The notes beneath the pieces are model-generated. The model was not told the origin of the DNA. It ran no database searches and saw only the letters and a list, made by a program, of their open reading frames with translations. The position numbers were made by a program, and so were the translations under genes. A stretch of DNA of 33,608 bases from IMG/VR virus record IMGVR_UViG_3300032236_000403, positions 1 to 33,608 of that record, one strand, 5' to 3'. This DNA is from a virus. Each line of letters begins with the position of its first letter. The stretch's first letter is position 1. Below, in pieces: positions 12,435 through 33,608 of this stretch.

Positions 12435-13262
12435 ATGGACAACAACCCGTTAAAGCAGTATTTCAGAAGACCATCTGTATACATGAAGCTACCTTCAGCC
12501 GGTCAAGGATATCCAGATGGATCATTGGATCTTCCAGAAAACGGAGAGCTTCCAGTTTATCCAATGACTGCGATTGATGAGATCACCGCTAGAACACCTG
12601 ACGCATTGTTCAATGGAACTGCAATCGCAGAGTTGATTACAAGTTGCTTGCCTAACATCAAGGATCCTTGGGTAGTTCCCAACGTTGATCTAGATGCGAT
12701 TCTTGTTGCAATTAAAGCAGCATCTTCACCGTCAGGTGAAATGGATCTTGAAACTGTTTGTCCGAAGTGTGATGAAATTTCTACTTATAAGATAAACCTA
12801 GCTGGCATTTTGACTGCAATCGCAAGTCCTGACTTCTCACAAGAGCTAGCAGTGGGTGATCTTAAAGTAAAGTTAAAAGCCGTCAGCTTCAAGGACATTA
12901 ATGCTGCATCTATGAAGCAATTTGAATTTCAAAGAGTAGCTTCTCAACTAGATGCAATTGAAAATGAAGCTGATCGCAACAAGCTATTGAAAGATTCATT
13001 AGAAAAAGTAACAGAGTTGACTATGGATTTACTATGTTCAGCTATTGAATACATTCAAACTCCTACTATTAAGGTTGATCAGAAAGATTTTATTCTTGAT
13101 TTCTTGAAGCACTGTGACCGTAATGTGTACATCTCTATTAGAGATCGTAGTGCTGAATTGCGCTCTGTCAGTGAAATCAAGCCAATGAAGATAACTTGCG
13201 GAAGCTGTCAGAATGAATTTGAACAAGCAATTACGTTGAACCCAACAGATTTTTTCGACTAA
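12435..13262 (+). CDS. gp26: Baseplate hub / tail assembly protein (gp26-like)
   Basis: This 275-aa protein resembles the T4-type gp26 baseplate family: KLPSAGQGYPDGSLDLPENG near residue 18, PMTAIDEITARTPDALFNGT near 43, then SCLPNIKDPWVVPNVDLDAI. Two Cys pairs, CPKC at 109-112 and CGSC at 255-258, could bind one zinc. In T4 gene 26 is needed to assemble the baseplate hub but is not clearly a stoichiometric part of it. Here the gene is next to the tape-measure-like genes, and its 3' end carries a -1 frameshift cassette leading into a 76-codon extension. That is the layout of lambda G/GT-type tail assembly chaperones. The zero-frame product stops at 13260-13262. Confidence 0.82.
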   Translation: MDNNPLKQYFRRPSVYMKLPSAGQGYPDGSLDLPENGELPVYPMTAIDEITARTPDALFNGTAIAELITSCLPNIKDPWVVPNVDLDAILVAIKAASSPSGEMDLETVCPKCDEISTYKINLAGILTAIASPDFSQELAVGDLKVKLKAVSFKDINAASMKQFEFQRVASQLDAIENEADRNKLLKDSLEKVTELTMDLLCSAIEYIQTPTIKVDQKDFILDFLKHCDRNVYISIRDRSAELRSVSEIKPMKITCGSCQNEFEQAITLNPTDFFD

Positions 13263-13298
13263 CGCTTCTTAAATCTGGACCCGAACAGATTAAGAAGC
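13250..13298 (+). promoter_or_regulatory. Putative programmed -1 ribosomal frameshift signal
   Basis: The heptamer T_TTT_TTC at 13250-13256 is in the zero frame of the gp26-like gene (GAT TTT TTC GAC TAA). After a 7-nt spacer, 5' arm GCTTCTTAAATCTG (13264-13277) pairs with 3' arm CAGATTAAGAAGC (13286-13298): 13 base pairs with one bulged A and an 8-nt loop. Slippery site, spacing and stem all fit the classical -1 frameshift layout, and the -1 frame stays open for 76 codons. Confidence 0.8.
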
Positions 13299-13486
13299 TG
13301 TTTGACTCGTATGAAGAAGATGTTGCAGGGATAAAGAAGACATCACTTGAAATGGCATGGCATATGCGAGGTGGTGCTACTTATGAAGATATCCTAAATA
13401 TGTCTTTTCAAGAGAGATCAGATATCAGTAAAATGATAGAAGAACACCTAGAGATCACGAAGAAATCACAACTTCCGTACTTCTAA
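13256..13486 (+). CDS. gp51: -1 frame extension of the gp26-like gene (gp51-like / GT-type chaperone half)
   Basis: There are 76 codons in the -1 frame, from RLTLLKSGPEQIKKLF to the stop TAA at 13484-13486. The frame opens at 13223 but has no ATG, GTG or TTG until an internal ATG at 13352, which lacks a Shine-Dalgarno sequence. Independent translation is therefore unlikely. The predicted fusion after slippage is 350 aa. The end (AWHMRGGATYEDILNMS...KKSQLPYF) resembles the C-terminus of small T4-type baseplate-hub catalyst or chaperone proteins as I recall them; the gp51 label is an inference. By analogy with lambda GT, the extension would recruit tail tube or tape measure protein. It ends 3 bp before the terminator stem. 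Confidence 0.68.
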   Translation, partial: RLTLLKSGPEQIKKLFDSYEEDVAGIKKTSLEMAWHMRGGATYEDILNMSFQERSDISKMIEEHLEITKKSQLPYF

Positions 13487-13489
13487 CTT

Positions 13490-13524
13490 AGAGGGAACTA
13501 TTCATTTAGTTCTCTCTTTTTTTT
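13490..13524 (+). terminator. Rho-independent terminator after the gp26/gp51 unit
   Basis: AGAGGGAACTA (13490-13500) pairs with TAGTTCTCTCT (13507-13517) across a 6-nt loop, 11 bp with one G-U pair, and runs into eight T residues (13517-13524). The wobble exists only in plus-strand RNA, which fixes the direction. Confidence 0.9.
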
Positions 13525-13548
13525 GGCTTCTATTCTAGTTCTCATTCA

Positions 13549-13600
13549 GAGTTGTCCTTCGGACAACTTATACCTTACTCACTTCGTTCGTTTCGGTATA
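13549..13600. repeat. Two adjacent hairpins just downstream of the terminator
   Basis: First hairpin: AGTTGTCC / GGACAACT at 13550-13568 with a TTC loop, extended by one G-U pair if read on the plus strand. Second: TATACC (13569-13574) with GGTATA (13595-13600). They touch each other with no spacer. They may be the 5' end of the structured RNA candidate or separate 3'-end elements. Confidence 0.6.
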
Positions 13601-13620
13601 CTCTTTCTCATTCTTTAATC

Positions 13621-14045
13621 GGTACTTCTATTATACACTTACTAAATCATATTGCCGTTTTAGAGCCATGGTAGTGCTGCACAGCACTACCAATGGTTTC
13701 GGTCATTGCCATGTCCCGTCGCCTTTGCTGTCTCTTCCCCGTCAATCTAGCTTTTCGTGCTGACTGACGCTACCGGTTGCCCTATAAAGTTCACTGGGAC
13801 TGTAGTGAGGCTATCTCTCGACTCCTCAGCAACGCATGTTCTGTATCCTCAAGACAGAGTACGATACAGACTCATTCAGGGTTCGCTTAACCTAACGAGA
13901 GCCCTGTCGGTATTCCATAGATGTAAACACCTATGCATTTTGAAGGAATGCACCTTCCGCTCCAGATTCCGTTCGCAGTGTTCCATGCGTCCTCAAGGAG
14001 GGTCGAGCTACCCCGACCAAACAGCTATGTAGGGTTCTGTGTTTT
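13621..14045. ncRNA. Candidate large structured non-coding RNA
   Basis: This is most of a 563-bp stretch (13487-14049) without a credible gene. GC over 13681-14040 is 182/360 (51%). Visible stems include 13666-13696 (10 bp plus CCAT/ATGG across one bulge), TCTGTATC/GATACAGA (13840-13847 with 13863-13870), CAGGGTTC/GAGCCCTG (13877-13884 with 13899-13906, one G-U on plus), CATAGATG/CACCTATG (13916-13935, G-U on minus), GGTCG/CGACC (14001-14018), and a possible long-range GTCGG/CCGAC (13906-13910 with 14013-14017). Strand is undecided because wobble evidence points both ways. I see no group I intron core, RNase P, tmRNA or tRNA signature. The class could be compared with large ornate phage RNAs such as GOLLD or ROOL, but I cannot match the sequence to either. 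Confidence 0.5.
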
Positions 14046-14049
14046 AAGT

Positions 14050-14613
14050 TTAGGTGTTGATTGTTAGTACGTTGGATGTAGACGAGGTGTCAATGTTTGT
14101 ACTAGGTGAGCCTGAATAAACTTTAAGAAGGTCTTTGTTGAGCTTGAAGAAGTGTTGAAATTCAATAATGATCCAGTCGCCAAACTTAGCGGATGTGTAA
14201 TAAATGAAGTTATCAGTAACCCAAGTACACTTTGCTTGAACAGCAACATACTTGCCTTTACGATTAAACTTCATGAATAGCACATTGCAATCATCTGCTT
14301 CTGCGACTGCCATCAGTTGATCTAACCAGCCGTCAATTTGCTTGCATTCCCCTGACAATAGAAGATGAAAGGGGAAGTCTGCATACGACTTGCACTCTGC
14401 GTTGAACTTAGTAAAAGTTTCGCCCGGAACGATATCACCCTTGAAGCTACGAATTTGACCTTCGTCTAAAAACTGTTTACGAGATTGGTTCTTTCCGCCG
14501 ATATACGCACCCGAACCAGGAGCCCGAATGAAACTTTCGTTGTATGTTTTTGACAGGAAGACTGCTACTTCTCGTTCGAACGAAGAGCCTTTTGCTTTGC
14601 TAGGTGAAGTCAT
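14050..14613 (-). CDS. Hjc-like Holliday junction resolvase / PD-(D/E)XK nuclease
   Basis: This 187-aa protein has the layout of archaeal-type resolvases. KGSSFEREVAVFLSKTY at the N-terminus carries the first acidic residue, IRAPGSGAYIGGKN a conserved basic loop, GDIV the Asp, and ECKSY the E-x-K of the catalytic core. These enzymes cut four-way junctions and other branched DNA; in a T4-type phage this would resolve recombination intermediates before packaging, the job of gp49 in T4, which belongs to an unrelated family. The gene is last in a minus-strand unit with gp47 and gp46. The ATG at 14611-14613 lacks a strong Shine-Dalgarno sequence. The last 25 residues are Ser/Thr-rich. A different PD-(D/E)XK nuclease role remains possible. 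Confidence 0.72.
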   Translation of the reverse strand: MTSPSKAKGSSFEREVAVFLSKTYNESFIRAPGSGAYIGGKNQSRKQFLDEGQIRSFKGDIVPGETFTKFNAECKSYADFPFHLLLSGECKQIDGWLDQLMAVAEADDCNVLFMKFNRKGKYVAVQAKCTWVTDNFIYYTSAKFGDWIIIEFQHFFKLNKDLLKVYSGSPSTNIDTSSTSNVLTINT

Positions 14614-31323: not shown

Positions 31324-33608
31324 ATGGCTAGAGTAAGAACGCTTAATTTTCTCCCAGAGGTTTTTCAAACCCCTCCCAACGCACAGTTTTTGGCAGCAAC
31401 GCTTGACCAAATCGTAAATCCACCTAATGTAGCAAACATTCAAGGCTATGTTGGTAGTACGTTTGGTACAGGCGTCATGGCGACAGACGCCTACGTAACT
31501 GAACCTACAAAGACTCGTGCTGACTATCAGTTGGACCCTGGTGTTATTTTCACCAAACCAAATGAATCAACTGCTGAAGATTTCATCACATACCCTGGAA
31601 TCGTTGACGCACTCAAGATGGCAGGTGGAGCTACTCAGGACAATAATAGATTGTTCAAGAGCCAGTTCTATTCATGGGATTCTTTCACTAACCTGGATCC
31701 ATTAATCAATTTCAATCAGTACTACTGGTTGCCAGACGGTCCACCTACTGTTCAAGTTTCAGCTTCTACTGTATTTTCTAAAGAAGCATTTGTTGTAACT
31801 GACAACACTAACACTTACAGCATCGTCAGAGAAGGTTCTACAAAGTCAAATTCTAATCCGCCAATCACTCTATTGAGAGGTGGTACGTATACTTTTCAAG
31901 TAAATCAAGACACTCAGTTTTGGATTCAGGGCGCGCCTGGTGTTTCAGGATATAGTCCAACGCAGCCTAATCAGCCCGTACGAGATGTATATGGTGTAAT
32001 TGATAACGGTGCTACTTCGGGTCTCGTGACTTTTGAAGTTCCTCAGAGAAACGCACAAGATCAGTACATCTTCCCAACTACAGTAAACACAGACGTAATC
32101 AGCACGAGCCCGTTTGACGATGTTAATGGACAGTTTGTTAATTCATTTGCTGGCATTGACGGCATCACATCTCTGTTAGGATTGCGTGTAGCATTCTATG
32201 ATACACCTCAACCAACTGCATATGTTTCTTCTTACTTTGGTGAGACAGACTACGACACTAATGACCCTGCTCTAGTTCCCCCTGCCACACTCACTGTGTC
32301 AAGCTGCGATACGAATGCGTTCACATTAGCATCAGGTGATACTAGCGGATTGGTCGTCGGTGGCACAGTGACATTTGCTGGCATTGGGTTTGGTGGAATC
32401 AACTTAGGTCAAGTCTACTTCATTCATAGTATTCCGAACTCAACCTCATTCACTATTTCAACTGCATTGAATGGTAACTCAATCACATTGACTGCTGCAT
32501 CAGGCACTATGACAGTTAATGTCAATCAGGGTCTGTATGAAGATGGGTATAATGTAAATGTAGGAAATACTTTCTTCAAAGTCACTTACATTGGTGATCC
32601 GACTAATCCAATTATCAGATTAGTTCCAGACGGTGCTATTCCTTCTAATACTCGCATTCTACCTATTTATGGAACAGAGTGGAATAATAGACCTTTCTAT
32701 CTCAACGTAACTAATAATCTTGAATTGATCCCATACATCAGTGCACCTCTTGATGTTCTATATTATCAAGACGGAACTAATCCAAACAAGGTTGGTACTA
32801 TTCATCTTATTGAAGACAACTTGAATAACACCATTGATGTTGATATTCAAATTTTAGGTCATACTAATTATACTGCACCAAACGGTGTCGTGTTTACAAA
32901 TGGATTGAAAGTAAGTTTTGACGGTGACGTAATTCCTACTAGTTATCTAAATGGTGAATACTATGTTGAAGGTGTAGGTACTTCTATTGAATTAGTACCT
33001 GTAGAAACTCTAGTAGCACCAGAAAAGTTCAGTGAAGGTGAATACATCGCATGGGATGTCACAGATTGGGATATCGGTAACTACGATATTAGTCTTGACA
33101 TTCCGGTCTTAGCTGACTATATTACAATTGCACGTAACGCAATCAATAAGAATGCGTGGGCAAGAAGCAATCGCTGGTTCCATATTGATGTAATCACTGC
33201 AACAGCAACTTACAATGATGATCCTACTATTTTGACAACGTTTGGTAATGTTGCCAACAAAGCAGTACGCCCAATCGTTGAGTTTTATCCAAATCTAAAA
33301 TTATTCAACTCAGGTTCTACTGGTAAGAATCCTGTAGACTTTATTGATACTGTTAACACTGATGCATTGTCAACTGTTCCCGGTGCGCTTGCTTATTATC
33401 CAGACGTTCAAACTTACACAACTGCATCTGCAACTATCAATGCTACTCCTATAACTCCTGTAGCTGCTGGTTCATTTGTTCCTGGCAACACTTATCGTAT
33501 CAGTACATACGGTACGACAACTGATTGGAATACTGTTGCTGGAACAACAGACAAAAATTACGCAGTTGGAACTATATTCGTTGCTGCCGTTGCAGGAACA
33601 GGCAATGG
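31324..33608 (+). CDS. gp7: Large baseplate wedge protein, N-terminal part (gp7-like), cut by window edge
   Basis: There are 761 codons without a stop up to the right edge. The protein begins MARVRTLNFLPEVFQT and continues NAQFLAATLDQIVNPPNVAN, IQGYVGSTFG, KTRADYQLDPGV, NNRLFKSQFYSWDSF and NFNQYYWLPDGP, the usual start of the very large wedge protein that follows gp6 in T4-related phages. Gp7 links the central wedge to the tail fibres in T4. Two inserted segments look like mobile beta-rich modules of phage tail proteins: about residues 320-400 (VTFAGIGFGGINLGQVYFI) and about 715-761 (FVPGNTYRISTYGTTTDWNT). No Shine-Dalgarno sequence precedes the ATG. The assignment rests on position and the N-terminal pattern; the remaining length is unknown. 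Confidence 0.72.
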   Translation, partial: MARVRTLNFLPEVFQTPPNAQFLAATLDQIVNPPNVANIQGYVGSTFGTGVMATDAYVTEPTKTRADYQLDPGVIFTKPNESTAEDFITYPGIVDALKMAGGATQDNNRLFKSQFYSWDSFTNLDPLINFNQYYWLPDGPPTVQVSASTVFSKEAFVVTDNTNTYSIVREGSTKSNSNPPITLLRGGTYTFQVNQDTQFWIQGAPGVSGYSPTQPNQPVRDVYGVIDNGATSGLVTFEVPQRNAQDQYIFPTTVNTDVISTSPFDDVNGQFVNSFAGIDGITSLLGLRVAFYDTPQPTAYVSSYFGETDYDTNDPALVPPATLTVSSCDTNAFTLASGDTSGLVVGGTVTFAGIGFGGINLGQVYFIHSIPNSTSFTISTALNGNSITLTAASGTMTVNVNQGLYEDGYNVNVGNTFFKVTYIGDPTNPIIRLVPDGAIPSNTRILPIYGTEWNNRPFYLNVTNNLELIPYISAPLDVLYYQDGTNPNKVGTIHLIEDNLNNTIDVDIQILGHTNYTAPNGVVFTNGLKVSFDGDVIPTSYLNGEYYVEGVGTSIELVPVETLVAPEKFSEGEYIAWDVTDWDIGNYDISLDIPVLADYITIARNAINKNAWARSNRWFHIDVITATATYNDDPTILTTFGNVANKAVRPIVEFYPNLKLFNSGSTGKNPVDFIDTVNTDALSTVPGALAYYPDVQTYTTASATINATPITPVAAGSFVPGNTYRISTYGTTTDWNTVAGTTDKNYAVGTIFVAAVAGTGN

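Follow-up and report, generated by a model that had tools for sequence, protein, structure and literature searches.

A block of ~490 nt between the resolvase gene and the baseplate hub gene of a T4-like phage is a real folded RNA, encoded on the minus strand, and it belongs to a large, old superfamily of phage RNAs. Three versions of the superfamily, referred to as W (the type found here), M (environmental), and J (jumbo phages), could be linked to each other statistically and stepwise. Relatives occupy the matching genomic site in hundreds of phage sequences from the environment. The window, that is, the whole stretch of DNA analyzed (33,608 nt; IMG/VR record IMGVR_UViG_3300032236_000403), derives from a myovirus encoding a portal, a head protease, baseplate hub and wedge proteins, a late sigma factor, a RusA-like resolvase, and the SbcC/SbcD-like gp46/gp47. 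Its nearest cultured relatives, as judged by the portal, hub, and sigma proteins, are the jumbo phages Atu_ph07, Phosso, PA5oct, XbC2, CBB, GAP32, and 121Q, with identities below 60%. The block and its surroundings are organized as follows:

12435–13262, plus strand: baseplate hub gene (phrog_150, E 6.3e-14), the invariant downstream neighbor, on the opposite strand
13490–13517, plus strand: intrinsic terminator of the hub transcript, outside the RNA
~13545–14038, minus strand: structured noncoding RNA of ~490 nt with approximate ends (5′ end just past the RusA-like stop, 3′ end past the tail hairpin), delineated by nhmmer/blastn conservation, covariation, and the comparison of G-U with A-C cells
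14050–14613, minus strand: RusA-like Holliday junction resolvase gene (phrog_244, E 7.9e-19), the invariant upstream neighbor

An earlier, sequence-only reading had proposed a large structured RNA in a block without believable protein, elevated in GC, preceded by a plus-strand terminator, and ending at the resolvase stop; each of these descriptions held. Inside the block, a single ORF reaches 60 aa; it comprises 91 aa and begins with GTG (13757–14032, plus strand), and the longest open stretch in relatives ranges from 42 to 115 codons in differing frames and on differing strands, so that no protein is conserved. GC is ~0.51 at 13700–13899 versus ~0.40 in the surroundings. Folding energy, compared with dinucleotide shuffles, was stronger on both strands (z −2.8 for plus and −3.3 for minus). 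The strand, which had been left undecided, could be assigned from the alignment, where wobble G-U cells (38) exceed A-C cells (10), making the minus strand the RNA. ARAGORN predicted neither tRNA nor tmRNA within the 33.6 kb.

Searching IMG/VR with the flanking proteins returned 74 loci, and the block was kept as noncoding DNA in 30 distinct aligned sequences (the window included). A DNA pattern derived from two conserved core stretches matched at least 120 IMG/VR stretches; among the matches listed, RusA lay directly upstream on the same strand in all 105 loci with detectable RusA, and the hub gene lay downstream on the other strand in all 97 loci with detectable hub. W-type contigs, including one of 361 kb, were found to carry one copy of the RNA per genome. 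Neither blastn of the W block against cultured phages nor a W profile HMM against the jumbo phage loci gave a match. More distant relatives likewise have gaps at this locus or close to it (L064, 5100–5700, minus strand; L077, 14232–15247; L079, 19716–20380); they were recognized by neither model and may hold further diverged versions.

Two features of the neighboring genes were observed in passing. The 3′ end of the RusA gene contains GACACCANGTC (GAC-N5-GTC; ~14082–14094, minus strand), which is present in most W-type loci at a variable distance upstream of the RNA and is kept though the RusA C-terminus is unconserved; it may serve as a phage promoter or as a site for a regulator. In the hub frame, immediately ahead of the stop, the heptamer T TTT TTC (13250–13256, plus strand) would upon a −1 shift lead into a frame open to 13486 that has no obvious start codon, and 61 of 69 relatives keep TTTTTTC close to the hub stop. 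The stretch 13263–13486 is probably coding via this −1 frameshift, which looks like a conserved, programmed event yielding a hub/chaperone fusion.

The fold of the W-type RNA, read 5′ to 3′ on the minus strand, consists of the following parts:

13960–14026, minus strand: 5′ domain, in which the hairpin 14018–14012/14007–14001 covaries
14000–13992, minus strand: near-invariant CUCCUUGAG in the alignment of the 5′ domain
13966–13960, minus strand: UCUGGAG of the 5′ domain
14000–13997 with 13963–13960, minus strand: CUCC/GGAG, able to close the 5′ domain
13916–13935, minus strand: hairpin 13935–13929/13922–13916, with compensatory changes
13724–13914, minus strand: core domain, the basis of model R1
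13771–13912, minus strand: long-range helix P1 (13912–13908/13775–13771), enclosing P2; 97.4% of cells paired
13906–13902/13881–13877, minus strand: P2, inside P1, with a 3-bp continuation (13898–13896/13885–13883); 99.1% of cells paired
13840–13870, minus strand: hairpin H1 (13870–13865/13845–13840); 100% paired, both-side changes in six of six pairs
13728–13857, minus strand: pseudoknot PK1, H1 loop 13857–13852 with 13733–13728
13776–13833, minus strand: P5 (13833–13828/13781–13776; GUUGC...GCAAC); 97.1% paired
13827–13824/13810–13807, minus strand: hairpin P6, enclosed by P5; 79.1% paired
13736–13799, minus strand: pseudoknot PK2, 13799–13796 with 13739–13736, crossing P5
13740–13769, minus strand: hairpin P8 (13769–13762/13747–13740); 96.1% paired, double changes in seven of eight pairs, E 0.0035
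13669–13692, minus strand: hairpin P9 of the 3′ domain (GGUAGUGCU/AGCACUACC), conserved, with few compensatory changes
13550–13568, minus strand: tail hairpin AGUUGUCC-GAA-GGACAACU, with CGAACGAAGUGAGU upstream, seen in the alignments

In 23 W-type sequences, 96.8% of the cells of the named structure (47 pairs in nine helices, including the two pseudoknots) were paired, and 32 of the 47 pairs showed changes on both sides. When the partners were slid by one to three columns as a control, pairing fell to 31–41%. A tree-based covariation test (G-test with average-product correction and an R-scape-like null; a custom implementation, not R-scape itself) returned six pairs with E < 0.5, three of them with E < 0.05, whose cells are nearly all standard pairs. 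PK1 was 100% paired, with double changes in five of six pairs and E 0.015 in this test; PK2 was likewise 100% paired, its best pair reaching E 0.002. The structure was also examined in an independent set of 59 loci (50 distinct sequences), collected by sequence pattern without use of the structure and aligned with a model from which the pseudoknots were absent. Model R1 matched all 59 (E 1.5e-64 to 4.9e-32), and 97.2% of all cells and 98.0% of those in the two pseudoknots were paired (98.0% for PK1 and 97.9% for PK2), with 46 pseudoknot double-change cells versus 10.7 expected from shuffles. Stem-breaking changes in homologues, which the sequence-only reading had named as what would speak against it, were looked for and did not occur in either the covariation analysis or the independent set. 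The long-range closure suspected there corresponds to P1, and the check it proposed, covariation in phage metagenome relatives, supported the helices and added the two pseudoknots, which had escaped that reading. Its interpretation as a large structured phage RNA is thus supported.

CUCCUUGAG is similar to the 16S rRNA 3′ terminus (anti-Shine–Dalgarno), and its pairing partner GGAG to a Shine–Dalgarno sequence. A link of these two elements, which can also pair mutually, to the ribosome is conceivable from their sequence.

Of the two options named in that reading, one of the known ornate RNAs (GOLLD or ROOL) or a new class, the GOLLD/ROOL identity did not stand, as there was no Rfam match. At gathering score, no Rfam family (GOLLD, ROOL, OLE, introns, and RF01718 included) matched the window, and a permissive scan of 13400–14150 (E up to 5) gave chance-level matches only, none of them close to the gathering score and none to RF01718. 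A CsrB-like permissive match turned out to be the plus-strand terminator region, and a fragment of the glutamine riboswitch (E 3.4) was at chance level. The J copies tested were matched neither by RF01718 nor by the GOLLD and ROOL models. GOLLD, ROOL, OLE, intron, and tmRNA identities therefore failed every test applied. GOLLD, the 3′ part of which is conserved and the 5′ part variable (PMC12286853), is likewise large, elaborate, and phage-borne, but the present RNA lies between resolvase and hub genes instead of in the tRNA islands of GOLLD; tRNA genes, frequent neighbors of GOLLD and ROOL, are absent from the 33.6 kb. ROOL, for which several pseudoknots and no known protein partner are described (PMC12286853), is similar in size, phage-borne, and likewise pseudoknotted, but occupies another locus, and a J phage genome can hold as many as five conserved paralogues. 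The resemblance to large ornate phage RNAs thus holds in a loose sense, in size, complexity, and phage origin only.

The J type was found in cultured RaK2-like jumbo phages (121Q, Munch, GAP32, CBB, and RaK2), giant phages of Escherichia coli and Salmonella with up to five copies each. 121Q and XbC2 have gaps of 770–840 bp at the matching place, adjoining the hub and a nuclease gene, and the 121Q gap sequence matched 164 places in 42 phage records. In seven genomes, the copies, all on one strand, numbered four (121Q), five (XbC2, Munch, CBB, GAP32, and BF, each), and three (RaK2); in the deposited annotations, these loci are empty or occupied by small hypothetical genes. All 32 J copies have a TATAAT box at the aligned site, mostly following a TG, and ~20 nt upstream lies a TGRAAC-like element; every copy has a promoter-like sequence of the sigma-70 type. 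In 121Q, an intrinsic terminator is present on the RNA strand as well. Positionally matching copies of CBB, GAP32, BF, and XbC2 cluster together in the tree; as the copies group by genome position, the paralogues predate the genera of these phages, and they are positionally conserved between most genera. In CBB, the other four copies reside in gaps between unrelated genes. The J structure had 97.5% of cells paired and both-side changes in 34 of 40 pairs, and covariation of J alone recovered H1, the loop pseudoknot, the GUUGC/GCAAC helix, and the crossing helix, arranged one after another as they are in the window. Model R2 gave no credible match in Phosso, Atu_ph07, or PA5oct, the syntenic gaps of which may contain a diverged copy; the one match in Phosso had E 0.36 and was off the locus. 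The J copies within a genome are near-evenly spaced, for example, at 32395, 94341, 174463, 258183, and 336372 in KU574722.1.

A related core was found with the J model at the same locus in hub relatives that lack the W type. Against M loci, including those from the pattern scan, this model reached E 1.3e-5 at best, other matches being weaker. In 44 loci of subtype M1, covariation of their own gave the helix order of the window, and the spacing between the 3′ strands of PK2 and PK1 was 2 nt, equal to that in the window. Of 20 M loci scanned, 11 were matched by RF01718 (Polynucleobacter-1) immediately 5′ of the core and on its strand, with scores of 81.7–120.3 bits versus a threshold of 37. Model R3, built on the 5′ domain of the window, matched M loci with E 6.6e-5 and 6.3e-4, plus weaker matches, at a constant distance of 196–201 nt before the M core pattern; these loci belong to the second subtype, and R3 did not match the RF01718 region of M1, the subtype that carries the Rfam match. 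The M-type RNA is followed by the tail hairpin arranged as in the window, its stem being 99% paired with many compensatory pair types. Model R1 gave no credible match to J or M, and the core models gave no direct cross-detection between W and either of the two. W probably connects to M by way of the 5′ domain, together with the topology, the tail hairpin, and the locus that they share, and M connects to J by the core, giving a chain from W via M to J. Each alignment on its own shows the marks of the superfamily: H1 with the PK1 loop, P5 with GUUGC-like and GCAAC-like strands, PK2 crossing P5, and the 3′ strand of PK2 immediately before that of PK1. By eye, all three also have a 3′ domain hairpin with a flanking short repeated element (CGUCAG in J, GGAUAAU in M, and CCAUGGC in W). 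The M pattern occurred 10 times in bacterial genomes, probably by chance, as none of these matches was backed by R2.

What had been catalogued previously is one fragment of one version, namely, RF01718 as the 5′ part of M. Polynucleobacter-1 is listed in a table of Weinberg et al (2010; PMC2864571) for Burkholderiales and fresh water/estuary, with a tentative mark. It shares with the present RNA the freshwater sources and, in M loci, its place 5′ of the same double-pseudoknot core. It is a 141-nt motif, its mark in that table presumably meaning possibly cis-regulatory, whereas here it covers just the 5′ section of a longer RNA of phage origin. Beyond the Polynucleobacter-1 entry, no description of the RNA was found in the open-access literature, nor of the full-length superfamily, its phage locus, or its multicopy state.

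As to function, the reading we favor, with moderate confidence, is a stand-alone ~490-nt RNA gene on the minus strand of T4-like large phages, the product of which acts in trans as a compact scaffold or decoy particle. The RNA is laid out as a 5′ domain, the double-pseudoknot core, and a 3′ hairpin domain. In J phages, host RNA polymerase would make it early and abundantly (several gene copies, each with a strong promoter, while few genomes are present), which suits a stoichiometric rather than a catalytic role, and the particle, of RNA alone or with protein, would most likely sequester or scaffold some part of the machinery that expresses host or phage genes. We infer the action in trans, and the dosage argument applies to J; the single copy in W contigs weakens it for W. 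A clear sigma-70 promoter was not found for the W-type RNA, which could thus derive from the resolvase transcript as a processing product or an untranslated portion; in W phages, the RNA may be processed from, or started within, the end of the recombination-gene transcript.

This last point is shared by a cis-acting alternative, in which the RNA belongs to the 3′ untranslated end of the transcript spanning sigma/gp47/gp46/RusA and sets how that transcript is stabilized, processed, or terminated, or else restrains the hub transcript as an antisense RNA. Besides the lack of a clear promoter, the position of the W RNA, always directly after RusA on the same strand and facing the hub gene among the matches listed, is in line with it, as one fixed gene-adjacent locus is also expected of a cis element; the tentative mark of Polynucleobacter-1 in its table entry (PMC2864571), if read as cis-regulatory, points the same way. 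However, the syntenic copy in 121Q and CBB is opposite in strand to its neighbors, hub and EndoVII, that of 121Q has its own promoter-like sequence, four further CBB copies lie between unrelated genes, and the double-pseudoknot fold, at ~490 nt, is oversized for this kind of task. A cis role is possible in W; as an account of the RNA we consider it unlikely. An RNA for replication or packaging, be it a primer/R-loop origin or akin to the pRNA of phi29, appears more improbable still. The W RNA adjoins recombination genes, and the one-stranded J copies are spaced unusually evenly in five related genomes (gap test, P 0.002–0.005), but spacing is inherited, so that these genomes are not independent and the argument is weak; moreover, two of the seven, 121Q (0.05) and RaK2 (0.14), show it less, W genomes appear to be single-copy, and covariation indicates a folded RNA rather than a DNA origin sequence.

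Double pseudoknots are common in ribozymes, and the order of P5, PK2, and P8 resembles that of P3, the crossing P7, and P8 in the group I intron core. A ribozyme or degenerate self-splicing intron nevertheless has little to recommend it, as neither a sequence match nor an Rfam intron match was obtained, no gene is interrupted, the RNA residing outside any gene, and no guanosine-site helix is conserved: where group I introns would keep it fixed, the PK2 strands vary freely (for instance, UA, CG, GC, and AU at one pair). That the block is an artefact, folding by chance between genes or conserved for structure at the DNA level only, is very hard to believe; although the energy z-scores are modest when taken alone, the covariation already refutes it, and the G-U bias, the independent set, and the J promoters also argue against it.

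The trans-acting reading extends to a bolder possibility, which we regard as distinctly uncertain and rather doubtful as a whole: a single ancient superfamily of double-pseudoknot RNAs of ~450–500 nt would be a core component of T4-like large phages, kept at one invariant locus and expanded to five paralogues in RaK2-like phages, and would act as an abundant RNA-only or RNP particle reprogramming host expression early. Large structured RNAs without an assigned job are rare, and each new class has drawn wide interest. The present one is abundant in environmental phages, and through it an orphan Rfam motif can be understood as one portion of a longer RNA. As several copies are present in phages growing on E. 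coli (Sharanji on K-12 MG1655), its function is directly testable.
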